A DNA stretch of 54,862 nucleotides from contig SWDN01000017.1 in assembly GCA_005116775.1 (NCBI GenBank), positions 111,080 to 165,941 of the forward strand, in the 5' to 3' direction. The notes beneath the pieces are model-generated. The model was not told the origin of the DNA. It made no database searches and saw only the letters and a program-made list of their open reading frames with translations. A program made the position numbers and the translations under genes. Every line of letters begins with the position of its first letter. Position 1 is the first letter of the stretch. Shown here piece after piece: positions 5,276 to 51,013 of this stretch. The DNA comes from Nitrospira sp. (GTDB lineage: Bacteria > Nitrospirota > Nitrospiria > Nitrospirales > Nitrospiraceae).

Positions 5276-5764
5276 CTAGGATTTTCTCTCGTGATCTCCT
5301 CTGCGCCTCTTCTGCGTCCCTCCTATGCGGTTGCGCTCTTGCTCGAAGCCCACGGCAGCATAATACAGCACGCGATCGAAGAACTGGCTGAGCAGGTACA
5401 ACAGCTCCAGCTCTCCATGCAATTCCATGGCACTCTCGGATAGACCTTCCCGCTGGACGAAGTCGCGCACGTGCCCCTTGGTGGAGATGATGGCCCAGAC
5501 GAAGTGGCTGTAGGCCACACCCTGCTGGGCGCGCGCTGCGCCCAGCTCGGTGTAACGCCGCTCCAACTGGGCCTCGCCCTTGTCCATATCCAACAGCCAG
5601 TCACTCAGGTTACGGTAGATCTCGCTCGTGCGGGCTTGAAGTTCGTTCGCCGGGACTTTGTTCAAATCGCTGCACCGGGGAGAGTTCCATACTTTCTCGC
5701 TGAGGTCGCGGGAAAGCTGTTCAATGTGATTCTCGATCAGTCGCACCAATCGGACAGCCAGCAT
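5276..5764 (-). CDS. Helical sensor-like protein, possibly related to RsbRD N-terminal domains
   Basis: This soluble, all-helical product has 162 aa from the ATG at 5764, which has GAGG six bases before it; an in-frame upstream start has no such site. The central part, with RRYTELGAARAQQGVAYSHF and VWAIISTKGHVRDFV, resembles the helical N-terminal region of RsbR/RsbRD-type stress regulators and some kinase input domains. It has no STAS or kinase domain of its own. It lies upstream of no other gene on its strand but next to the Hpt/hybrid kinase block, so a signalling role is plausible. The family assignment is tentative. Confidence 0.5.
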   Translation of the reverse strand: MLAVRLVRLIENHIEQLSRDLSEKVWNSPRCSDLNKVPANELQARTSEIYRNLSDWLLDMDKGEAQLERRYTELGAARAQQGVAYSHFVWAIISTKGHVRDFVQREGLSESAMELHGELELLYLLSQFFDRVLYYAAVGFEQERNRIGGTQKRRRGDHERKS

Positions 5765-5966
5765 GGTTTGCCTCAAACTTCGGTTAAAAATGGGAGCGCG
5801 CTTCACCAACTACGCAGTCCTGCTTGGCCCTGCGCTTCACCTTATGCACTCCACACTGTGGGGATGTCAATATGTTCGTTGAAGAGAAGGCGTGTTGCCG
5901 CCGGATTCGCCTCGCCAGTGAGTTTTTCAGAGATGACATTTGTGCGCGCTGCGCAGAGCGTGGCTC

Positions 5967-6296
5967 TTATCTCCGATACACCACAAACACTCGGGCAAGA
6001 AAGTCGGTAAGTTCGGCAGTATGTCGTCGAATCGCTGGCCGGTCTTCTCGCGCAGCTGCTTGCTCCAAAGCGGCTCCGATCGCACTGATCGCGTCGAATC
6101 CGTACCCTCCTCCATCTCCCTTCAAGCGATGACCGATCATTTGGATCTGCGACAAATTATTTTCTTGTAACGCCGTTTCTATGGTCTGCACGTCGCCCCG
6201 ACGATTTTCTAAAAACCCGGGAATTATCTCTTCCAGCTCTTGGTCGATATACAGGGTAATCGTATTCTCGGTATTTCTATTCGATCCTGTGTTCAT
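5967..6296 (-). CDS. Histidine phosphotransfer (Hpt) domain protein
   Basis: This 109-aa single-domain protein has the Hpt signature [13 protein letters not shown], with the phosphoaccepting His at position 56 and the usual Lys and Gly at +3 and +4. Hpt proteins shuttle a phosphoryl group between receiver domains in multistep phosphorelays. Its start overlaps the stop of the hybrid kinase by 4 bp (ATGA), so the two are co-translated, and the kinase's two receiver domains are the expected donors. The likely final acceptors are the REC proteins at 11262-12958. Confidence 0.88.
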
Positions 6297-9200
6297 GCCG
6301 TAGGCCTTCCCTTACAAGCCTGGAGGACTTCGAGGAACGTCTGTTTCTTGATAGGTTTGGTCATATGCGCATTACAGCCGGCTTCAAGAATCTTGGCCCC
6401 GTCCGTTTTCAACGCCAACGCGGTCAAGGCAATCACTTGTGTGGGAGGAAGATCCTGCTCCCGCTCCCAGGCCCGGATCGCTTTCGTTGCCTCATAACCA
6501 TCCATAACTGGCATCTGCACATCCATCAAGATCACGTCGTAGTACCCGTGCTTAAATAGTTCCAATGCAATGGCTCCATTATCCGCGATATCGAGACGAT
6601 GGGGAGTCTGCTTCAGATACGAACGAATCAGCACCTGATTGTCCGGGGAATCTTCCGCCAATAAAATACGAAGTGCCCTGGCTTCGGTAGGAGTGGTGGT
6701 GGCCACTGACGCCGTTTGAGTTGTCGGGTGGATCCCCTTCGAACGGTCGAGCGCGATACCGATGGTCTTGAGCAAGTCCGATCTTCTGATGGGTTTGACC
6801 AAGTATCCACCCAAGCCCATGTCGTAGGTGCGGGCAATATCGTCGGCCCAATGGTCGGAGGTCATCATGATAATCGTCAGACCCTGGGAATGGCTGGCTC
6901 GCCTGATCTCTTCGACGACTTGAAATCCATCCATCTCCGGCATGCGAGAGTCGAGAAGTACCAGCTGGAAGGGGGTACCAGAAGCAGCGGCTCGCCGCCA
7001 TTCGACGAGGGCCTCACGACCGGTAGCGACATCCGTCACCTCTGCACCTATAGCCGACAAGGTTTCGTGAAGGATCAGGCGGTTGGTGCTATGGTCATCG
7101 ATAACGAGAGTGCTGATTCCGTGAAGGTCGAGTGAGTCCTTATCGCCTGCAAGCGCAGGGCCGGATTGCACTGCCAGCTGCACGCAGCCATGAAACGTGC
7201 TGCCCTCTCCGAGGGTGCTCTCGACCCAGATTCGCCCGCTCATGAGCTCCGCGATTTGCTTTGAAATGCTCAGCCCTAGACCCGTCCCCCCATACTTGCG
7301 CGTGGTTGAGGTATGGGCTTGTGTGAAACTGTCAAAAATGGATGTGAGCTTGTCTGCCGGAATACCGATTCCTGTATCGCTGACAGAAAATCGAATGGCT
7401 CCAGGCATGGGATTCTCAGGATCCAGCGAGACCCGCACTGTCACGGACCCATGGTCGGTGAATTTGATGGCATTGCTGATGAGGTTGATGAAGATCTGGT
7501 GGAGCCGGTTAGGGTCTCCGGTCACGGCATGGGGGACGTCGGGCGAAAGGTGGCAGGCGAGTTCGATGCCCTTTTCGTTCGCCTTCATGGCGAGGATCTC
7601 GATGACTTTTTCGAGCAAGTCACTCAAATCGAAGTCGGTCGATTCCAACTCGAGATGACCGACCTCGATTTTCGACAGGTCGAGAATGTCGTTGATCAGA
7701 CTCAAGAGATTTCCGCCGGCGCGCCGGAATATGCGCAGGTATTTCCGTTGCTCTGGAGTCAGCTCTGTATCCCACAATAAATCGGCCATGCCGATGATCG
7801 CGTTCATCGGCGTGCGAATCTCGTGACTGACGCTGGCAAGGAATTCGTTTTTGGCTGCGCTCGCTTTTTCCGCACGTTCCTTGGCCTGGGTCAAGGCTCT
7901 TTCCGACTCCACTCGTTCCTTGGCTTCCATCGCCAGAGTCGCCACCGTGGCAAATGAGGCGGCAACAGCCATTTCATCGGTGGTCCATTCGCGGGACGCG
8001 CCGACATGTTCATGACACAAGACACCCACCACCTTGCCCTTGTATCTGATCGGCGCATCGAGCATCGCGCCGATCCCAAGCGGCGTGAGATATGACGATG
8101 AAAACTCACAGGTGCGTGGATCGGAGTGGGCATCGTGAGCCGCAAGTGTATGCTCTTCCCGCTCCAATGCCTGAAAGTAAGACGGAAATTGCTCGGCCTG
8201 AAGAACAGCTCCTGCGCTGTGCCGGCGGGCGATGACCTCATACAGATTTTGCAGCCGGATGGCCGAGCGGTTTTCCAGGAACAGCCAGATGCTGGCGCGA
8301 TCGACTGCCAACACGCGGCTGGCTATTTCGGTGATGGCCTGAAACGCTCGGTGAAGGTCTCCGGAGATGGCCGCTTCGTTCTGAGTCAATTCAAGCAGCC
8401 CGGCCTGATGTTCTTGAAGCAAACTGAACCGCTGCCGTTCTTGCCTAACAACTCGTTTGCTCTCTGTGATGTCTCGGCAGGTGCAGATAAGGTCGGGGTT
8501 CTGTTCCTCGCCACGTCTAAATTGCTGCAACGCCGCTTCGACATCGAATAACTCTCCGGTCTTCTTTTTACCGACCAATTCGCCGCGCCAATATCCGACC
8601 TGCCTCAAGAAGGGAATATGGACTTGTTCCATCGTGATCTGTTGATCGGGGCCATACAGTTTCTTCCACGGTTTTCCAATCAATTCTTCAACCTCGTAGC
8701 CGTACAAAGCCGCATGGGCTTGGTTCATATAGGTGTACAGTCCGTCGGCATTCAGAATGGCCAGGCCTTCCATGCTGTGAGCCACGGCATGCTGGAGTTG
8801 AATCAATGACTCGTGCTCGCGTTTCTGCTCCGTGATGTCGATCATAAGGCCGCGAGCCAAGACGGGCCGTCCTTCTTCTGTATGCACGGTAACGATGTCT
8901 TTGAACCAGACAGCCAGACCGTCGGCGGCGATCATCCGGTAGTCGGCCTCATGGGCCAAACCCAGCTTTGTCTGTTTCAGGCAATAGGCCAGGACCCATT
9001 CCCGATCCTCTGGGTGGATATGATCGGGCCAGAACGACGGGTCGTCATACCATCGCTGGAGGGGATAGCCGAGGAGATGCTCGGCTTGTCTGCTCACAAA
9101 GGTGAAGCGGAGGGTGGCGGGGTCCATCTCCCAGACAATGCCGGCCACGGAGTTGAGCAATGAGGCGTAGCGCTGCTCGGACAGGCGCAGGGCCTCCTCC

Positions 9201-11188
9201 GTTCGTTTGCGCTCGGTGATGTCCTGAATGAGTGCGATCGAATGGAGGTGGTTTCCCTGCTTATCGAGAATGCTCGAGACCGTGGTTTGAGCCCATATCA
9301 GTGATCCGTCTTTCTTCACGTATCGCTTCTCAATAGTTCCGTGACTCCTGGTGCCTTCGACCAGCTGATTCATCAATTCCTTGCTGGCCGGGATATCGTC
9401 CGGAAAGGTGAGACCCTTCATGCCAAGATGGCAAAGCTCTTCTGGTGTGTATCCAAGCATCGAGGCAAATACGGGATTGACCTGGTCGATACCAGTTCCC
9501 GTCGTATGACTGCCGACGGCAATTCGAAGTTGAAGCAGCTTCTCATGCTGGCGTTTCTGCTCTGTGATATCTTCCGAGATGCCGAGCAAGTAGCGGGGGC
9601 GTCCTTGCTGATCCACAATAGGGATTTTTTTCGTATGAAGAATCCGCCGCCCCTTCTTCTTTGTCTCAATGGTTTCTTCTGGAATATCGAGGAGATCTCG
9701 CCTCTTAAGGACTTCCCGATCCTTGCTCGTAAAAAAATCCGCTTCCTCCTTGGGAAAGAAGTCGTAGTCGTTCTTGCCCAGCAACTCCTCGCGCGAGTGT
9801 CCGATCAGATCCTCGCAGGCGCGATTGAGCCGAACGAATCGAAGATCGCGCGCATCTTTCACAAAGATCATGTGCGGGATGTTCTCGACGATCGATTGCA
9901 TGAACTGATCACTCTCCTGTCTTTCTTGCTCATCGCGTACGCGCTGAGTGATATCGCACACGATAGCCAGGAGAAATTCCCGATCGAGCTGCACCAAACG
10001 AGTATTGACCTCGACTGGGAAGGTCGAGCCGTCTTTCCGGCGATGGACGGTTTCCAGCGTCACCGGTCCGTTTTCTCGTATTCGCGTGATATTTTGCGCA
10101 AGGATCGGCGCTGTGACATTCGGATCGATATCAGGGACGGTCAGCGACCGATGCTCTTCGCGGGTGTAGCCAAGACTTGAGAAGGCCTTGTCATTGGAAT
10201 CTATGAAGCGACCGGTCGCGGGATCGATAATCTCGATAGAGTCTTCGGCCTGATCGAGCAACGCGCGAAACAGTGTCACCGCCTGCTCCGCCTGCCTGCG
10301 CTCTGTGATGTCTTCGCAGGCGATGAGCGCGACTGACACTCCCTCGCGACATGCGATTCGAACCGTCTCACTAACCCAAATCACGGTTCCATCTTTCTTG
10401 ACCTTCCGGAATGTCCACCGAGCCACGCGGGAGGGATTGTCGAAGGCTTCAGCCAGGTTTCGGACTACCGCACTTTTGTCTTCGCCGTAAAAGACATCGA
10501 GGACGGAATGCCCGACCAGCTCTTCCTGCTCATATCCCAGCTGCGATGCCCCAAATCTGTTGACAGAGAGCACCCTGCCCGTCTGGCTCACCGTAAAATA
10601 CATGAAGGGAGTTTCTTCGAAGAGATCGCGGAATCGTCCCTCGCTTTGGCGCGTGACCTCTTCCAGACGCTTCCGCACAGTGATATCTTGTCCGATGGCC
10701 AACACACCTCGCGCCTTGCTTTGGCCGGTCAGGATCGGGGTGATATTCCACAACAGCGTATGACGTCCGCCGTTCTGATCAATGACCTCATGTTCATAGG
10801 CCTGGGTAGACACCCCTTTCAGCACCTTGCGAATGTCGGCGGACACTGCCTCGTGAATGTCCTTGGGCAAAAAAGTTGTGAGATAGTCTTTGCCCATCAC
10901 CTCTTCTCGGGACCAGCCATAGATGCGTTCGGCCGCGCGATTCCACTCGAAGATCCGGTGCTTCGGCGTCAGGCCGATAATCACGCTCGGGCTGGTTTCC
11001 AACAAGCAGCGATACAGATCGTCTCCCGCAAGCGGCACTTGCCGAATCGCATGTGGCTTGCGATCGCTGTCAATGGGAACCAGCGTTTGCGCGGAAGTTC
11101 TGCTTCGTGAGGGTGCTTCAGATTGGCGTAGAGCCCGACTCTTCTTCGTAGAGTTCTGGCGAGAGACCGTCTTGGATCGTTTGATCAT
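6293..11188 (-). CDS. Hybrid sensor histidine kinase: seven PAS, GAF, HisKA, HATPase, two receivers
   Basis: The 1631-aa protein has no clear membrane segment, so it is probably cytoplasmic. About seven PAS/PAC units fill residues 55-915, each ending in a DIT-x-R/Q/K motif. A GAF-type domain follows (about 925-1085). The HisKA domain has [11 protein letters not shown], with the phosphorylated His at 1122. HATPase motifs are [16 protein letters not shown] and GGTGLGL. REC1 has its Asp at 1413 (LLDSRMP) and REC2 its Asp at 1556 (LMDVQMP). The fifth PAS (around [14 protein letters not shown]) lacks about 12-15 residues of its N-terminal strands. It shares a 4-bp overlap with the Hpt gene. Confidence 0.93.
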
Positions 11189-22302: not shown

Positions 22303-22800
22303 TTAGCGGTAGAGGGATTCGCGTCGATCGCGGAGTAGATCGTTGTAGCGCGTGAGAGTTTTGTTTCGCGCGTCGGCAGGGTCGATCTCGACGATATAGA
22401 GTTCGTCCTGATCTCGTGGCGCGCGATGCAGAATCGCCCCCTTGGGAGCGACGACTTCACTGTTCCCAATAAACGTCAGCTGATCTTTGCCGTCTCGCGC
22501 TTCGCTCCCTGTGCGGTTACAGGTAATCGCGAAGACTCGATTCTCCAGGCACCGAACCGGCATAGAGTCCGGGCAATTCGGCAAGATCAGATTCGAGGGA
22601 TGGCAAATAATCTCCGCTCCCTTGAGCGCCAATGTGCGAGCTGCTTCCGGGTAGTACCAATCGAAACAGATCATCGTGCCGATCTTGGCTGATCCGATAT
22701 CCCACACCTGAAACCCTGTGTCGCCGGGGGCAAAGAACAGCGTTTCTTCAAAAAACAGATGAGTCTTGCGATAACACCTTATGTGGAATTCCATATACAT
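22303..22800 (-). pseudogene. Carbon-nitrogen hydrolase (nitrilase family), 5' part missing
   Basis: Family identity starts at YRKTHLFFEE, which carries the catalytic Lys, and continues through the nucleophile region IGTMICFDWYYPEAAR (Cys) to the end (RYNDLLRDRR). Full-length members are about 260-290 aa; only 165 codons remain, and the first 100 or so residues, including the catalytic Glu, are absent. The ten residues before YRKT do not belong to the family. It is therefore almost certainly non-functional or a chimera. Confidence 0.8.
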
Positions 22801-23464: not shown

Positions 23465-24415
23465 CTACAGCTTCAAGGTAAACCAGGTGGAGAGCGCCTT
23501 CATACCGTTGCGCTCGATGTTGTTCCCATCCCACACTGCAAATGCGATGGGCACGGACATTCCCGCCTTGAATTGAGTATCGTTGGCATCGCCGGTTTCC
23601 AACGAGCGCTTGACCACCACGCGCCATGTCGGACCGGAGTATCCACCGCCCTTGACTGCGCCGGAAGGTTCCCACACGCCGTTGCCAATGACATCCTGAT
23701 GCGCTTGCGTGGTGAGAGTGCTGAAGCCATTGGCGTTCAGATCTTCAACCGAACTCACGCGTAATGTCGGATCAGACATGATGTTGCCTGACCAGATACC
23801 AGGATTGAAGGGCCCGAGGCTTCGGCCAATCCGGTCCGGATAGGTCACGCCGCCAGCCGGCTCTTCGTAATAGTAATCCCAGAAAATGCCCGGGTATTGG
23901 TCGTCCACGTCCCAGATGCCTGCGCTATCCTTGCCGATATCCTTCTGCCATTCCGCGTTCCATCGCCAGATGTTGGTGGTACCGCCTGACTGACCCATGC
24001 ACTGGAAGGGTGGCGCTCCGGCAGTATTGACCGGGAACATGACCGCGGCCTGATCCCGAAAATCCTGAGGGCCGATGGCCGTATCGTTCTTGGTCTGATC
24101 CTGCCACTCGATGCGCATACCGATCTCTTTCCCGTTGGTCATGGCTTTCACGAACACCGACTTTACCGAAATATTCGGGTGCATCGGCGTGGTAATCAGC
24201 TGCCCGCTCAACGGCACGATCACCCCAGGCACACCTTCCCATACGGGGTTCGCGCCATCCATCGGGATCGCGCCCTTGACCATCTTGGCCGGAATCGTCA
24301 CCGGCTGGCTGACAGCCAACGGAACCTGCCCGATCGTGAGCATCACGCCCACAACCAACGCAGCGAGAAGAATGCCGAAGACCACACGTTTGCTGTGTGT
24401 CTGCACTACTCTCAT
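23465..24415 (-). CDS. NXR gamma-like heme b subunit (EB_dh domain)
   Basis: The 316-aa exported protein has a signal or anchor segment (residues 11-30) and an ethylbenzene dehydrogenase gamma-type domain. In this family a heme b is held by Met and Lys; Met140 in PPFQCMGQ and Lys269 in WRVVVKR are the likely ligands, and IWRWNAEW fits. In Nitrospira such proteins are NxrC candidates, passing electrons from nitrite oxidation to the respiratory chain. No alpha or beta subunit lies here. GAGGAGG precedes the ATG. Confidence 0.85.
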   Translation of the reverse strand: MRVVQTHSKRVVFGILLAALVVGVMLTIGQVPLAVSQPVTIPAKMVKGAIPMDGANPVWEGVPGVIVPLSGQLITTPMHPNISVKSVFVKAMTNGKEIGMRIEWQDQTKNDTAIGPQDFRDQAAVMFPVNTAGAPPFQCMGQSGGTTNIWRWNAEWQKDIGKDSAGIWDVDDQYPGIFWDYYYEEPAGGVTYPDRIGRSLGPFNPGIWSGNIMSDPTLRVSSVEDLNANGFSTLTTQAHQDVIGNGVWEPSGAVKGGGYSGPTWRVVVKRSLETGDANDTQFKAGMSVPIAFAVWDGNNIERNGMKALSTWFTLKL

Positions 24416-24466
24416 AGGATACTCCTCCTCTCGATTAAAGAATGAAAATTGACGTCACACTCTCGG

Positions 24467-24598
24467 TCAATGCGGATTATTGGACATTGAGAAGATGGCC
24501 AAGATCACGCCCACGATCAACGAACCGACAAGAATGCCGATCCTCACCAGGTTACTATGCGGCTTCTCCGCTTTCGGTTCTGGCTTCGGTTCTTTCAT
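24467..24598 (-). CDS. 43-aa single-span membrane protein in the NXR-accessory operon
   Basis: A short frame of 43 codons has AAGGAGG nine bases before its ATG. The product has a Lys/Pro/Glu-rich N-terminus (MKEPKPEPKAEKPH) and one membrane helix (about residues 19-37), ending SMSNNPH. It lies between the TorD-like chaperone gene and the EB_dh gene on the same strand. It may help assemble or anchor the heme b subunit (inference). Confidence 0.75.
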   Translation of the reverse strand: MKEPKPEPKAEKPHSNLVRIGILVGSLIVGVILAIFSMSNNPH

Positions 24599-24693
24599 TC
24601 GACATTCCTCCTTATCGAATCACAATACGCCGGGTGGCCCATGACCACTCTCGAACGTACCGAGCCGGCGCCTTCAGATACATCTGATACCGG

Positions 24694-25665
24694 TTAGGCG
24701 TTTCCGACTGGCCCCTCGCCCTCTTTGTCTTTGTCCTGCTCCTTCTTGTCCAAAAACGACTCTGCGCCGACTTCGTTCAGCAACAGACTCAGCTCGTTTC
24801 CTTGATCCTGCGCGCCGCACTCGTAGGCCTGGCCCTCCGGAGAATTGAACGTCGCCGGGCGATAATCGGTTTCCGAGTAGGGCTGAGGAGCGACACCGAG
24901 AAATGCGACTTCAAAATCCATCCATTCCGCCATTAAGTCTGCCATATGTTTATACAAGCCAGACCCGGCTTTTTTGACCAACATCCGGCAAAACAACGGG
25001 ACCCACCGGCCGACATGATTTTTGACAAATTTTTTCTGCGCGTCCAGGACAATCTGCGTCTTGTCCGCTCCATCGTGGCAGCGGGAATAGGATTCTTTGT
25101 AGGCCAGAAAATGCATGAACTCGAATTCGACGCTCAAATGATCCAGTCGCTCGTGGATGTCTCTGGATAATTCCACTCCGAACGCGCGATAGAATCCTGC
25201 GATGTCGCCCATCACTTGCGATTGCGCGAACACGTGGTCGTTTCCGAACAGCGTTTCGTAGGGAGGACAATCGAGCGTGATCACATTGCTGAATACGCGA
25301 CGATGTTCAGCTTGCAAATCCGCGAGTTGCCAATTGACACATTCCGACGCCACTACTTTTTCGATCAGGTCGAACTGTTTACGCAGCAAGACCAGCTTGA
25401 GTTTGGTCCGCTCACCGCCGATGCCGTCGAGCGCCTGATCCAACGCGTCAAGCGCCGCTCGTCCATCATCGACAAACTCGCCGCATTGCACATAATCGAG
25501 AAACTCGTCGTCTTCAGGATAGAGCTGGCTCCACGACACGAGGAGATAGAGCTTACTGCGATTGAGCGCTCGCTCGACTGCGGGGGAATCTTTGATGGCC
25601 GGCGAAGCAGGAAGAACCCCGGCCAGGGCTTGAGAATTGGCTTGCACCGGCTGTTTACCTGTCAT
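24694..25665 (-). CDS. TorD/NarJ-family molybdoenzyme chaperone
   Basis: Chaperones of this family bind an apo-molybdoenzyme and its twin-arginine leader until the cofactor is inserted. The 323-aa product is all-helical with the signature region around YETLFGNDHVFAQSQVMGDIAGFYRAFG, and HLSVEFEFMHFLAYKE. The C-terminal 35 residues are very acidic and Lys-rich (DKKEQDKDKEGEG). With the neighbours, NXR maturation is the likely job; its client is not encoded here. Confidence 0.9.
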   Translation of the reverse strand: MTGKQPVQANSQALAGVLPASPAIKDSPAVERALNRSKLYLLVSWSQLYPEDDEFLDYVQCGEFVDDGRAALDALDQALDGIGGERTKLKLVLLRKQFDLIEKVVASECVNWQLADLQAEHRRVFSNVITLDCPPYETLFGNDHVFAQSQVMGDIAGFYRAFGVELSRDIHERLDHLSVEFEFMHFLAYKESYSRCHDGADKTQIVLDAQKKFVKNHVGRWVPLFCRMLVKKAGSGLYKHMADLMAEWMDFEVAFLGVAPQPYSETDYRPATFNSPEGQAYECGAQDQGNELSLLLNEVGAESFLDKKEQDKDKEGEGPVGNA

Positions 25666-43404: not shown

Positions 43405-44621
43405 TTAGATCCCCTTCGCCTTCTTTTTGTTCGATCGCCTGATCAATATCCAGCCTTCAAGAAAAACCACACCGGCAGCGATCACAATCGGATAGATATA
43501 GGCTTCTCGCGGCATCGGTGGCTCCAGGAACGTATAGTAGAAGGCTGAGACGGCCATCTTTCGCCCAGCGTCACCGTTATGTCCATCCCAAGCGAAGAAC
43601 ACCGTGGGAATGTATTGTCCCATTTCAAAGAAGGTATCTTCGTCGTAAATATTATCCTTATTGTTGCCTAACGGCCGTTGCATGATCACTGTCCAGCGAC
43701 CATTCTTCCACTCGGAAAATAGAATCTTGGTGAACTCTTCGTAATTGTCCCGCTGTTCAAAATCCTTATCCCATCCGGTTCCCTTGAAGGCGCGCAGTGA
43801 ATTGTCCGCTTCCCATTTCAGAATATCGACTGGGAACTGTTCGTTGCTGCCGAATAGATAACGCGGCTTGATCGGCGCAGGAAGCTCTTTCCACTTTACC
43901 GCCGTCTGCATAGCGACTGCATCCATTTATGCCAATCGGCGGGCTGTATTGAAAATCCCCAGTCGTCCTTAAGATTGAATGCATTACCGTCGCCACGTCC
44001 TTCCATACCGTGGCACTCCACACACTTCCTTTCGACAACAAGCTCCCCCCCTTTTTTCACACTCTCTTCGTTTGCAGGGAGCGGCTTCAAGTCGGCCAGC
44101 TGCAACACCGTCTGGCTCTCTGACTGCTTGTCCGTAAATTTTCGATCTTTCACAAGCTGGGTGGTAACGAATGACAATACTTGGAGCCGTTGCTCCTCCG
44201 TCAGAATACCTTCCCACGACGGCATAGCAGACCCTGGCAGACCGTGCGTCACAGTTTCAAACAGATCGTTTTGGCCCGCAATGGGCTTCTTGGCATCGAA
44301 CAATGGCAATTCACCGCTGGCAGTATGACGAATCTTGAACGTTCCCTGATTGAAGTTACGTGGGCGAGGCCAGAGTCGATCGGCGCCTGGGCCATCACCT
44401 GCCCCATCGACACCGTGACACCAGACGCATTTGGTGAAGTAGACCCGCTTTCCTGCTTCGACCATGTCAGCAGAAGGCTCAGGCGCCAATGCACCCGTCT
44501 TGAACCCCGCAGGAACAGCATCTGCGGCTAGGGCCAATCCCCCGCTCATGCCAGAGACTAATATGATTCCAAAAGCAGTCGTGAGGAATCTCCCTGCTTT
44601 CAGATGTAACGAATTCTTCAT
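43405..44621 (-). pseudogene. Diheme cytochrome c / EB_dh fusion gene with internal deletion and frameshift
   Basis: The first frame (start 44621, AGGG upstream) encodes a signal peptide and two cytochrome c domains with CVWCH and CVECH. It reaches SIQPADWHK and then runs into a stop after ten foreign residues. The other frame resumes as DAVAMQTAVKWKELPAPIKPRYLFG. It continues with the C-terminal half of an EB_dh heme b domain (GWDKDFEQRD, WTVIMQRPL, VFFAWDGHNGD) and a C-terminal membrane helix. The start of the EB_dh domain is missing. An intact version would be a cytochrome/NXR-gamma-like fusion. Confidence 0.78.
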
Positions 44622-44669
44622 CGCTTCCCTCATGTCATCAAACCAGGTTGGCTATACGCTCGATGAACT

Positions 44670-45707
44670 CTAGTCCCAGGTTCTTGGGTAGTATCCTGTG
44701 TGCCAATATTCGAACAAGATTACCTTCCAGATCTCGTCTACCGTCAAATGTTGTTCCCAGGGCGGCATGACAGAGGCCCAGGGAAATCCTTCGTTCGGCA
44801 AGCCGATTCCACCCTTGGAGACGCGCCAGAAAATAAATGTCTCTTGGAGCTGGGCGATTGTCCCCGGATCGGTAAAGTTCGCCGGAATTGGATTGAACGC
44901 AAACGCGTGAAGCCCGCGCCCGTTTAAGTTATCACCGTGACAGAAATGACAGTTCTGATAGAAAATTTCTCCACCCTCGCGGACATATTTCAGATACCCT
45001 TGAGCATCCTTATCCCATGGATTGGATGTGGGCTTCATCAAACGGCCCATACCCTGCTCCACAATATTGGCGTTGCTATACTCCTGGTCGAATTTTCCCT
45101 CAGGGTTGACCCGATAAGGATTCTGCGACGTTTGAAGTGTATAGGTCTTCCCATGCACCTTGGTGCTGGCCGGCGGAGCAGGATGCACCGTACGCAACTC
45201 AATCGGCTCCTCTGACTTGGGAACCATGGCATTGTATGAAAACCCACCGATCAAGATCGGGATGATAACCAGATACGCAATCCGCAATGCCTTGGTCCCA
45301 CCGGTCTTGGCGTCCAAGACGTTCATAATCGGCTGTTTGAATTTTTTCCAGTCCTCTTCGTTTGCAGAGACCCACATAAAGATGGCCACCAGGGAGATCG
45401 TTCCGTACATGGCTCGAACGCTAAACGGAATAGGCGGATAGATACGGAACTTCAAATAAATCAGCAGAAACGCCCAAAAAAGAATCCCCTGCCAAAACCG
45501 TGGGAACGCCATTCCCATGGCACTCATCATGTAGCTGATCCCTGTAAACCCCGCGACAAACAGGGTGAGCTCAGCGATGACCTGGACCGGCATGTACCCT
45601 TCGATCAGACGCACGGTATTTGATGGAACGATACCCACAGTCATTCCAGCAAGCAGGAGTATTCCAGCCGCTCCAATAAGTGCTGCCACTGACATTAATG
45701 CTTTCAT
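44670..45707 (-). CDS. Membrane protein with C-terminal monoheme cytochrome c
   Basis: From the ATG at 45707 (GGAG upstream) this protein has about 345 aa. Four to five membrane segments fill the first 160 residues. A periplasmic cytochrome c domain follows, with heme site NCHFCHGDN and a likely axial Met in SVMPPWEQHL. It probably passes electrons at the membrane between other carriers of this cluster. No exact family name is known to me. Confidence 0.82.
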   Translation of the reverse strand: MKALMSVAALIGAAGILLLAGMTVGIVPSNTVRLIEGYMPVQVIAELTLFVAGFTGISYMMSAMGMAFPRFWQGILFWAFLLIYLKFRIYPPIPFSVRAMYGTISLVAIFMWVSANEEDWKKFKQPIMNVLDAKTGGTKALRIAYLVIIPILIGGFSYNAMVPKSEEPIELRTVHPAPPASTKVHGKTYTLQTSQNPYRVNPEGKFDQEYSNANIVEQGMGRLMKPTSNPWDKDAQGYLKYVREGGEIFYQNCHFCHGDNLNGRGLHAFAFNPIPANFTDPGTIAQLQETFIFWRVSKGGIGLPNEGFPWASVMPPWEQHLTVDEIWKVILFEYWHTGYYPRTWD

Positions 45708-45750
45708 CGGTGAACTCCGTTTACTCGACAAAAGAAGTAAATAACCATGA

Positions 45751-45942
45751 TCAGGAAAGCTTCGGTGGTGGCGCCCCCACCTTCACTTGCGATAGATAAT
45801 CGACGATCTTTTTAATAGCGCCAGCACTCAACTTTTGACCAAATATTTTCGGCATCGTATTATCAGGGAACGGCTTCACCACGTAAGCACAACTACAACC
45901 AATGTGCCGCTGAATCAGCTCAGCGAGTTTCTTGACACACAC
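45751..45942 (-). pseudogene. C-terminal fragment of a small cytochrome c
   Basis: The remaining 63 codons end in a typical cytochrome c tail: AYVVKPFPDNTMPKIFGQKLSAGAIKKIVDYLSQ, with the axial Met in TMPKIF. The heme-binding CxxCH half is absent, and upstream DNA on this strand holds no such motif before a stop. It is judged a 5'-deleted cytochrome gene. A functional short protein without heme is unlikely. Confidence 0.65.
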
Positions 45943-46123: not shown

Positions 46124-47014
46124 TCAGCCTCTCTCTGATTTTTCGCCAGAAACCGCGCAGCGAAACCCAATGGTCTCATCGCGAAAGTCCGCGACCATCT
46201 TGCTCCGGCTCGTGATTCGAATATCAGCGCCTGTGGTCGCATAGCCGCCTCCACGAAGCACTCGAAATACGCCGTGTTCCGGACTCGGCGGGTTCTGCTC
46301 CGGAGCCTCCTCGAAGTACCGTTCTCCATACCAATCGTCTACCCACTCCATTACATTGCCTGCCCCATCCATGACACCATACGGACTCTTATCAGTCGGT
46401 ACGGTGCCGACAATCGCGGACACCTCATGACCATCCTGCACTCTGGCCCAATTCGCTCCATTAGGCTGTTCCGCATTACCCCAAGGCCACAGGCGCCCGT
46501 CCGATCCTCGCATCGCTTTTTCCCACTCTGCTTCAGTCGGAAGCCGCTTCCCCTTCCAACGACAGTACTCCTCCGCATCCTCCCATGACACATAGACCAC
46601 AGGCTGATTGACACTCAGCATTTTTCCCATGTTCTTCGCGTAGCGAGCGGGGGGGCCGGACTTCCGGTGTCCAGTCGCATTGACAAATTGTTGGTACTGA
46701 TAGTTGGTCACTTCGTAGCGATCGATCGCAAAGGCGCTCAGCAACAGCGTGCGCTGCGGACGTTCATCGAACCCACCATTATTGGTCCCTCGGATAAAAG
46801 GACCTGCCGGGATTGAAACCAATTCGTCTTTAATCGGCTCCTCATAAGCAGCCTGAGTAGGGTCGATCGTCTCAGATTGAGCGACATTTCCGGAATCGGT
46901 AGGAGACGTTTCAAACGGAGTCAGTTGAGTTCCACGTAGGATTCCCATGATCGGGATCGCAGCAAATGCAAGAATAGCGAGAAGAAACAGAACCTTGAAT
47001 TTGGTCTCGAGCAT
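46124..47014 (-). CDS. SUMF1-fold (formylglycine-generating enzyme-like) protein B
   Basis: The 296-aa product has an N-terminal membrane anchor and a SUMF1/FGE-type domain: IPAGPFIRGTNNGGFDE, VSWEDAEEYCRWKGKRLPTEAEWEKA, PYGVMDGAGNVMEWVDDW, VLRGGGY and GFRCA. The two active-site cysteines found after RGG(S/G) in true formylglycine-generating enzymes are missing. It is therefore probably structural or a sensor. It lies 5 bp downstream of its paralogue. Confidence 0.85.
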   Translation of the reverse strand: MLETKFKVLFLLAILAFAAIPIMGILRGTQLTPFETSPTDSGNVAQSETIDPTQAAYEEPIKDELVSIPAGPFIRGTNNGGFDERPQRTLLLSAFAIDRYEVTNYQYQQFVNATGHRKSGPPARYAKNMGKMLSVNQPVVYVSWEDAEEYCRWKGKRLPTEAEWEKAMRGSDGRLWPWGNAEQPNGANWARVQDGHEVSAIVGTVPTDKSPYGVMDGAGNVMEWVDDWYGERYFEEAPEQNPPSPEHGVFRVLRGGGYATTGADIRITSRSKMVADFRDETIGFRCAVSGEKSERG

Positions 47015-47019
47015 ATCGG

Positions 47020-47946
47020 TTATGATGCCCCGGGACTGTCGCTCATCTCGCCGTCATCGCTCGCGCAGCGAAACCCGATCGTAATATCCGTTCGCCAAGC
47101 TTTTGCGGCAAATCGCTTGGATAGCCGCGCATTATGCTCCGTCTCTCGCCACGACCCTCCCCGCACGACTTTCAAATCCGCACGGTCCGGCCCCTTCGGA
47201 TCGCGATAGGGCGCTTTCTCATAGTAGTGCTCATCGTATGAATCCTCAACCCATTCCGCGACGTTCCCTGTCATGTCATAGATCCCGTAGGGACTTCGTC
47301 CGAACTCGAAGGAGCCCGGCGGCGCGAGATACCGATATCCATCTTCACTCCCGTCCAAGTTTGCGTTCGCGCGACCATTCTTCACCGTGTCCCCCCAAGC
47401 ATATTTCCGCTTCCCCTCACCACGGCCAGCCTTTTCCCATTCTGCTTCCGTCGGAAGACGCTTTCCCGCCCATTTGCAATAGGCCGCCGCCTCGTCCCAC
47501 GACATGCTCATCGCGGCAAACTCGGGCTTCAGCAGCTTCGATTGATCGTCTTCGAACACTTCGATCTTGGGGAGCTGCCGCTTCGTCATTTTGGCGAACC
47601 GGGCATATTCCTCTTGCGAGACTTCTCTCTTGTCGAGATAAAAAGCCTTGAGAAACCGTTGACGCTCCGGCATTTCGTCAGGACCGCCGTCGGTGCTGCC
47701 CATGATGAATGGGCCATCTGGAATCTGCACCATTTCTCGGCCGTCATCGCCTATCTTCGTCTTATACATCGAATAGTCCAGCGCGGGCGCGCTGGCCGCC
47801 GCGGGGTGAGCCTCGGTCTTGATCGACGCGGCTAACACTTTCATCTGTTTCGCTTTGTAGGACTCGTACATCAGCAGGCTGATCATCAGGACGAACGCCC
47901 CAAAGACAAACACAATCGAGCCGATGAGCACCCCTCTATTTTCCAT
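47020..47946 (-). CDS. SUMF1-fold (formylglycine-generating enzyme-like) protein A
   Basis: This 308-aa paralogue of the neighbouring gene has an N-terminal membrane helix (GSIVFVFGAFVLMISLLM), then IPDGPFIMGSTDGGPDE, LPTEAEWEKAGRG, GIYDMTGNVAEWVEDS, VVRGGSW and GFRCAS. It too lacks the catalytic cysteine pair of FGE. The tandem pair probably faces the periplasm in the respiratory cluster; a role in complex assembly is possible. Confidence 0.86.
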   Translation of the reverse strand: MENRGVLIGSIVFVFGAFVLMISLLMYESYKAKQMKVLAASIKTEAHPAAASAPALDYSMYKTKIGDDGREMVQIPDGPFIMGSTDGGPDEMPERQRFLKAFYLDKREVSQEEYARFAKMTKRQLPKIEVFEDDQSKLLKPEFAAMSMSWDEAAAYCKWAGKRLPTEAEWEKAGRGEGKRKYAWGDTVKNGRANANLDGSEDGYRYLAPPGSFEFGRSPYGIYDMTGNVAEWVEDSYDEHYYEKAPYRDPKGPDRADLKVVRGGSWRETEHNARLSKRFAAKAWRTDITIGFRCASDDGEMSDSPGAS

Positions 47947-49063: not shown

Positions 49064-51013
49064 TCATGCCTCTTGCGACGACGATGGTGACGGCGCCAGC
49101 ACCCTTGCGCTTTCCCCAGCAGACTCTTCTCCCATCTCAGACGATTGACCACGCTGACACATCCAGAACAGAACTAACACTGAGCCCCAAAATACCATCA
49201 TATTGAGCGTCACCATCTTCGCAGCAAACGCAAAGTCCGGTGTAAAGGCCCAGGGAGACACATCGGCCATTACCTCACTCACATGCCATGACAGCCGCCC
49301 TGAGGAACGGATAAAGCCCATGAGACCCATCACCCACGTAAACGCCGCAGCCAATCCAAAGAGGCCCGCCATCGCTCGCAGAGAGATCTTTCCCCACTGG
49401 ATCGGCCCATGAAGGAGTGAGCCTTTGAGCATCATCCGATTCACGATCACGCCGATCACAAGAACCGTCAAGGTGGTGGCAGCCTGTGGCGACGACAGCC
49501 CGACACGGAGCTTCGCCGGCAAATAGTACCCATAGACAGAGAGCCAAATAATGTTGAGCGCGCCTAATAAAAACAACGCGCCGATGAGGAAGTTTCCCTT
49601 CTTCACCCAGGACACCACCATCGTGCGATTGGCGCGGCGATAATAGATAAAACTCATCGCAGTGACGAGAATCATGATGTTGACTGCGCCATTCTTCGCA
49701 GACATCACTCCGTAGTTGCCGACGACGGGATGCGACGCGCCGCCCATCGCCTTCACTTCACTGGCCGACATAAAGACGGTATGCGGCGTCAGCCACACAA
49801 ACAACGCCACCATAAACACCGAGAGCAATACCTGGTAGTACGGCTGATACCGTTCCCCTCCGCGTAGGCGCGCCATGCTTTGCCAGAGATAAAAATTGAT
49901 CCCAAGGAACAGGACACCGATCAAGATGGCTTGCACCACAAAGAGCCACGTGAGTAATCCACCCATCATCGTCACGCCCATACTCTGGCTGAATGAGTAG
50001 ACCGACCGCATCAACCAGTAGCCGGCAAAGGGCATCGGTAACAAGGCGAGAACCGTCACAAATAAAAAGACATGCCCGACCCAATCGAAATAGGCGCTCT
50101 CTTTCTCCGTCTTGCTGGTGAAGAATCGATAACAGGCATAGGCCATCACGACCGCCCCGCCGGACATGATGTTTGCCAGAAAGCGATGGACATTCAACGG
50201 ATTCCAGAGAGCCGAATGGAGCAAATGCCATCCGTTCCCCAGGAACTGCCCTTTGGCATTGATGCCGGCAGGAGCCATCATGAAGGCCGACCAGGCATTG
50301 GCCAAAAGCAGCAATGCGGTGCCAAACAGATTACTCAACAGGCCGATCGAAGCATGCATCCATTTCGAAGCCGGTTCCGTCAGCCGGTTCCAGCTATAGT
50401 AATAGGTGATCAGCAGGAGCGATTCCCCCAGAAATACGGACGCATAGACGGGCATGAAAGTCTTGAACGTCCCGCCCATGTACCGCATGAAGCTGGGATA
50501 GAAATAGAGAAAGATCCCCAGCATGATGCTCCCGACCACAGCGGTAACGGACAGGGCGAGGAGACCGACTTTTGCCAAATCACGCGCGAGGCCATCATAG
50601 CGAAGCGCGAGCTCCGGCTTTCTGCTGCTGAGACCGAGGAATTCCAGCAAGACACAAAAAATCGGCAGCGCAAGGACAAAGCCTCCGAAGTAGGTATGAA
50701 GTTGGGTGACGAACCAGACAAGCAGTCGACTGTCGAACGACCCCATGCGCGGATACACAGTCTCCTGAGGAGAAGGGGCCGATGGCCCATCGGGAATCCC
50801 CGGTGTCTTGAAATACAGATCGACAGCATCCTCGGCAAAAGATTGGCTCTGAAAACCCCAGCCAATCCCCAAAGCACCGAACACTGCCAACAGCAGAACC
50901 GCGTACCCGACTGCGCTAGAGGCATTCTTTCTGAAGACCATATGCTTACGCGATCTCTCCTTGTCGCTCGTGAAGCGTGACGCATCCAAATCTGGAAGCA
51001 AACGCCACGTCAC
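49064..51013 (-). CDS. Cytochrome bd-like quinol oxidase subunit I
   Basis: This polytopic protein has about 14 membrane helices. It resembles CydA-type subunits but is distant: TQLHTYFGGFVLALP early, an acidic helix with FLGESLLLITYYY, NVHRFLANIMSGGAVVMAY, and a further His in WLTPHTVF. Such proteins are known from Nitrospira, where they have been proposed as terminal oxidase in place of a normal heme-copper enzyme. No CydB-like partner lies in the cluster. The start may instead be the ATG at 50941. Confidence 0.85.
   Translation of the reverse strand: MTWRLLPDLDASRFTSDKERSRKHMVFRKNASSAVGYAVLLLAVFGALGIGWGFQSQSFAEDAVDLYFKTPGIPDGPSAPSPQETVYPRMGSFDSRLLVWFVTQLHTYFGGFVLALPIFCVLLEFLGLSSRKPELALRYDGLARDLAKVGLLALSVTAVVGSIMLGIFLYFYPSFMRYMGGTFKTFMPVYASVFLGESLLLITYYYSWNRLTEPASKWMHASIGLLSNLFGTALLLLANAWSAFMMAPAGINAKGQFLGNGWHLLHSALWNPLNVHRFLANIMSGGAVVMAYACYRFFTSKTEKESAYFDWVGHVFLFVTVLALLPMPFAGYWLMRSVYSFSQSMGVTMMGGLLTWLFVVQAILIGVLFLGINFYLWQSMARLRGGERYQPYYQVLLSVFMVALFVWLTPHTVFMSASEVKAMGGASHPVVGNYGVMSAKNGAVNIMILVTAMSFIYYRRANRTMVVSWVKKGNFLIGALFLLGALNIIWLSVYGYYLPAKLRVGLSSPQAATTLTVLVIGVIVNRMMLKGSLLHGPIQWGKISLRAMAGLFGLAAAFTWVMGLMGFIRSSGRLSWHVSEVMADVSPWAFTPDFAFAAKMVTLNMMVFWGSVLVLFWMCQRGQSSEMGEESAGESARVLAPSPSSSQEA

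Follow-up and report, generated by a model that had tools for sequence, protein, structure and literature searches.

A broken copy of alt_nxrC_2 in a Nitrospira contig, more probably a misassembly than a gene loss

The minus strand of the window (the whole 54,862-nucleotide stretch that we analyzed; Nitrospira sp., assembly GCA_005116775.1, contig SWDN01000017.1, positions 111,080 to 165,941) carries two fragments of an alt_nxrC_2-type gene, one whole and one truncated membrane cytochrome c gene, and a bd-like oxidase gene, interrupted by two breaks:

43405..43926, minus strand: 3' fragment of the alt_nxrC_2-type gene, 173 aa (ORF list, Pfam, hydropathy, 83-89% identity to genus relatives)
43896..44633, minus strand: 5' fragment of the alt_nxrC_2-type gene, 245 aa (ORF list, Pfam, 88% protein identity to relatives)
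43923..43924, minus strand: break 1, at which 559-565 bp are absent relative to 14 relatives (DNA alignment); no N
44670..45731 (open frame to 45782), minus strand: membrane-bound monoheme cytochrome c gene, whole (Pfam, full-length matches)
45754..45888, minus strand: C-terminal remnant of a second membrane cytochrome c gene (461-463 aa in relatives)
45888..45912, minus strand: break 2, at which ~3.4-3.7 kb are absent relative to relatives
49064..51013, minus strand: bd-like oxidase, whole (Pfam Cyt_bd_oxida_I; ~50% identical to bd-like_3)

The 5' fragment encodes a signal peptide, a first cytochrome c domain with the motif CVWCH (44429-44415), the first half of a second cytochrome c domain with the motif CVECH (44024-44010), and an out-of-frame tail, in which PADWHK is followed by WMQSLCRRR and a stop. 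The 3' fragment starts at DAVAMQTAVKWKELP and comprises the C-terminal part of an EB_dh domain and a hydrophobic C-terminal helix (~43503-43438, by hydropathy). Pfam recovered cytochrome c in the 5' frame (2.2e-14) and EB_dh in the 3' frame (1.6e-5), the latter over profile positions 186-232 of 236 and at 25.5 bits, i.e., below the cut-off of 33.3. An earlier sequence-only reading had described two cytochrome c motifs in one frame running to PADWHK, and a second frame with the later part of EB_dh and a membrane helix; both descriptions hold. It had also placed the loss at the start of EB_dh, which is indeed missing at the join, but the loss is wider: residues 244-432 of the CG24C orthologue (L035) are absent at break 1, and with them went the second half of cytochrome c domain 2, including a conserved TPMPSF, as well as the first part of EB_dh. 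The break shifts the frame, and its edges share at most 1 bp (by eye).

As the two frames overlap at 43896-43926, one could imagine that programmed frameshifting or another form of recoding joins them. The relatives that we read need no such event, and the idea is refuted by the 187-189 residues that are absent rather than merely out of frame, which leaves it a practically nil chance. It is likewise very improbable that the frames represent separate proteins, namely, a truncated diheme cytochrome and a membrane-anchored partial EB_dh protein: each frame is open, with a possible start of its own, but cytochrome domain 2 is without its second half, the EB_dh portion covers only the end of the profile and begins without a hydrophobic N terminus, and no genus relative searched has this arrangement. 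Consistently, a 200-bp query laid over the join found an undivided match in only 1 of 32 genus genomes, that of the window itself, whereas one or both of its halves matched separately in 29 others, split at base 100/101 and ~560 bp apart where both were listed; G011 and G021 gave no match among the 32 genomes searched. The confinement of the undivided match to one genome of 32 indicates that the join is not a matter of chance.

Comparison with orthologous loci, which the sequence-only reading had proposed as a check, revealed that relatives encode a single frame of ~600 residues with two heme c motifs and EB_dh, so that the cytochrome c/EB_dh fusion it had suspected is supported. More specifically, the EB_dh fragment found matches in 31 of 32 genus genomes (own genome included), and in 28 of the 31 others a strong match lay inside one open frame of 451-611 aa. 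G011, G012, and G021, whose assemblies are in 370-510 contigs, gave no strong match; in G012, the 5' half of the join query matched near a contig end. Across the family, 174 of 175 genomes yielded at least one match, which in a number of genomes was only weak and paralogue-like, and among the matches listed the strong ones lay mostly in frames of ~590-660 aa. Four short-framed family cases were inspected, of which two lay at contig ends, one at an N gap, and one (G034) had a frame change of its own. In all 80 named loci, a single frame of 594-658 aa contained the EB_dh end and exactly two CxxCH motifs; the genome scan had found 171 relatives, of which these were the best 80, a selection that favors intact copies. 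In an intact orthologue, EB_dh reached 40.1 bits. An N-terminal signal and a C-terminal membrane helix were both present in two intact orthologues, and the helix in the 3' fragment of the window, as judged from hydropathy only. Residues 63-299 of the intact orthologue matched a diheme cytochrome, PDB 6h5l chain B, at 8.1e-40, over both cytochrome domains and the TPMPSF region; that chain has 226 residues and, unlike the orthologue, no EB_dh part. The EB_dh half had no match by sequence in the PDB at E up to 10, and the predicted structure of the intact orthologue had a mean pLDDT of 44.8.

The gene is this genome's copy of alt_nxrC_2, and the intact protein is already known as alt_NxrC_2 of N. 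moscoviensis (PMC6606698). Table 2 of that paper lists alt_NxrC_2 as a diheme cytochrome c of 66.8 kDa (63.8 without signal) with a single signal peptide and a single membrane helix. The orthologue that we found in N. moscoviensis (NITMOv2_3640; NZ_CP011801, L032/L142) would be of 67.3, 66.8, or 66.7 kDa from three possible starts, one of which reproduces the tabulated mass, and it shares the two heme c motifs, EB_dh, the N-terminal signal, and the single C-terminal helix. The window sequence is a broken copy and, as it stands, not a working member: both CxxCH motifs are there, whereas EB_dh, which lies on the same polypeptide in the intact orthologue, is in the other frame and below the Pfam cut-off. 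A literature search for alt_NxrC with Nitrospira found PMC6606698 and PMC3578206 only. The latter describes alternative gamma subunits of Nitrospina with 1-3 heme c sites and a DMSO reductase-like heme b domain, and our likening of the gene to Nitrospina gracilis alt_NxrC follows that description. Because alt_NxrC_2 and these similar Nitrospina proteins have been published, the fusion is known. The sequence-only reading had seen in it a striking link between a periplasmic cytochrome and NXR-type electron transfer; the link is not new, since the account in PMC6606698 already offers alt_NxrC_2 as a possible NXR membrane anchor, or as a participant in reverse electron flow, a putative function that remains a proposal there. 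Further gamma-type homologues, per PMC8387239, are the soluble heme b subunits NXR-C of Kuenenia (Kustd1704) and EbdC, each described there with one heme b and as not membrane bound; that the window gene shares a family with them rests on Pfam EB_dh.

The neighborhood supports the same identity. In N. moscoviensis, alt_NxrC_2 has bd-like oxidase 3 and two membrane cytochromes as its neighbors (PMC6606698), and relatives of the window likewise have a bd-like oxidase, two membrane cytochromes, and, a few genes further along, another bd-like oxidase. Their order of transcription is the bd-like oxidase, a cytochrome of 461-463 residues, a membrane cytochrome of 370 residues, and the alt_nxrC_2-type gene, and G002, G004, and G028 have the complete cluster. 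The window differs from N. moscoviensis both in the split gene and in what lies next to it. One cytochrome is whole (87-95% identity over its full length; dN/dS 0.01-0.04), as is the oxidase at 49064..51013, which by position corresponds to bd-like_4 of the literature. Break 2, situated 2 kb upstream of break 1 in the same operon, falls where relatives carry the entire bd-like_3 oxidase gene and ~400 residues of the second cytochrome gene. Two adjacent proteins with FGE-sulfatase domains (window 46124-47946) adjoin the bd-like cluster, as they also do in G002, G004, and G028.

The intact product is exported and C-terminally membrane-anchored, with two heme c sites and a heme-b-type EB_dh domain, heme binding beyond the motifs being a prediction. 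The heme b of EB_dh and the two hemes c would then probably relay electrons to or from the bd-like_3 membrane complex, with NXR or a periplasmic carrier as the other partner.

Two breaks within one functional unit are what true loss of an alt_NxrC_2/bd-like_3 complex would predict, one recent deletion having taken bd-like_3 with most of a cytochrome gene and another having broken alt_nxrC_2. Several observations are compatible with such a loss: (i) bd-like_4, a paralogue, is still present in the window, as is a further EB_dh gamma-type gene; (ii) neither the missing alt_nxrC_2 segment (weak EB_dh or cytochrome matches only) nor bd-like_3 (only oxidase paralogues of 36-50% identity) was found elsewhere in the assembled genome; and (iii) the three genus genomes named above (3 of 31) also lack a strong match, though their assemblies are highly divided. 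Given the first break, a second would fall in the same operon by chance with a probability of ~0.18, and two random breaks would lie this close with a probability of ~0.12. Against a loss stand the strong matches to alt_nxrC_2 in 28 of 31 other genus genomes, the strong constraint on the remaining cytochrome gene, and equally sharp, N-free breaks elsewhere on the contig and in the window, which are described below. Both halves of the window gene are under purifying selection like that on whole neighbors (dN/dS 0.03-0.07, a rough estimate as dS was often near or above 1), which fits an artefact or a very recent loss alike. Taken together, we consider a real recent loss, the chief alternative to misassembly, unlikely. 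Improbable, too, is the natural double knock-out that it would amount to, in which this Nitrospira retains the other gamma-type subunit and bd-like_4 and the lost complex is dispensable for nitrite oxidation in its habitat; if the loss were true, it would test the need of the alt_NxrC_2/bd-like_3 complex for growth on nitrite.

To place the breaks in the context of the whole contig (C9, 354 kb), we compared it with relatives. Collinear alignment covered 169 kb of C9 and revealed 17 sharp losses in C9 versus 2 in G028. One of the 17, at 165635, is shared by G002 and G009 and was not counted further; the other 16 amount to about 1 per 10.6 kb. At this rate, ~3 breaks are expected in 31 kb of the window, where 2 were seen. 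We also flagged orthologues that appeared broken, using stop-to-stop frames of at least 180 residues, a survey in which some flags reflect extended N termini or antisense frames (e.g., the DegP row). With G028 as the reference, 28 of 131 orthologues on C9 were flagged at first, and 22 of 131 after exclusion of 6 broken only at N gaps. Flags away from N gaps numbered 13/97 with G025 and 6/43 with G086 (the complete genome of N. moscoviensis) as references. The corresponding controls from G028 were 0/51 in G002, 2/19 in G004, 2/23 in G009, 6/139 in G025, and 2/96 in G086; those from G025 were 8/130 in G028 and 2/80 in G086; and those from G086 were 1/53 in G028 and 1/51 in G025. Flags were thus somewhat raised, on small numbers, in G004 (MAG CG24A) and G009 (MAG RSF11) as well.

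Sharp, N-free breaks on C9 lie at ~31027 (an AAA ATPase gene, named by eye), 33211 (a ctpA-like protease gene), 196571 (moeA), 198321 (tatC), and 243809 (ilvD); further genes named in the survey were msbA, lpxB, mutL, and a gltD-like gene (by eye), the break in lpxB being at an N gap. Of ilvD, 130 of 578 residues are left, and of moeA 79 of 445. Of tatC, two pieces of 29 and 181 residues remain on either side of a 311-bp loss, as blunt as break 1. As NXR depends on a molybdenum cofactor, moeA would be expected to be indispensable. We found neither ilvD nor moeA a second time in the assembled genome, whose completeness is 70.19% although C9 extends over 354 kb; whole copies could lie in the missing part. 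For TatC, a 37% identical homologue is encoded on C23, and the loss of tatC alone need not be lethal. Losses of ilvD, moeA, and tatC are nevertheless difficult to reconcile with a living autotroph and therefore point to errors in building the contig. As C9 breaks these genes and others in the same way as alt_nxrC_2, misassembly is favored, and of the two outcomes that the sequence-only reading had left side by side, a newly dead gene or a misassembled one, the second is the better supported. Most probably, then, break 1 is an assembly error by which ~560 bp were left out while the contig was being built, and the living cell probably carries an intact gene of ~600 residues. Our guess is that a wrong join across a low-coverage stretch may have dropped the sequence at the breaks.

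We also considered whether the breaks in the window are scaffold joins. C9 contains 19 runs of exactly 100 N, the window being one N-free block between two of them, and 100-N runs also occur in the fetched stretches of G002, G004, and G009. MeDuSa inserts 100 N. According to the methods of PMC8751384, the Danish rapid sand filter MAGs, to which RSF names belong, were obtained by IDBA-UD short-read assembly, metaWRAP reassembly, and MeDuSa scaffolding. The window's genome may come from this set as well. Because the breaks lie inside an N-free contig block, scaffolding does not explain them, and the candidate was rejected. None of the window's breaks is at a marked scaffold gap, an observation that counts against misassembly. 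Exact tandem duplications, a sign of overlapping contig ends, gave no support either, there being one short instance in C9 and one in G028. We found no usable literature that describes internal deletions in MAGs of Nitrospira.

A third break, near 22780 and outside the operon, affects a nitrilase-type gene (~22306-22782) that keeps only residues 104-262 of a 262-residue domain, all of which is present in G002 and G025. The sequence beyond this break matches a place ~33 kb away in G002, so that, judged from these matches, break 3 looks like another false join, and it leans towards an artefact. From 23465 to the end of the window, the other genes (frames of at least 150 residues) were covered in comparisons with G002 and G028, except for low-identity or antisense frames and one gene cut by the window end.

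This genome and, less markedly, G004 and G009 have contigs with clean, N-free internal deletions; in genomes of this type, an apparent gene loss or broken fusion should therefore not be taken as biology without reads. A break of the same kind was noticed in G004 (L034, ~5612-6340), where a tgt gene is without ~450 bp in its middle.

Two further observations concern other parts of the window. At 23465-25665, a full-length EB_dh protein (316 aa) is encoded beside a nitrate reductase delta/TorD-like chaperone, a pair resembling nxrC_2 and its chaperone as described for N. moscoviensis (PMC6606698). At 6293-11188 lies the gene for a hybrid histidine kinase of 1631 residues with many PAS domains, one GAF domain, and two receiver domains.
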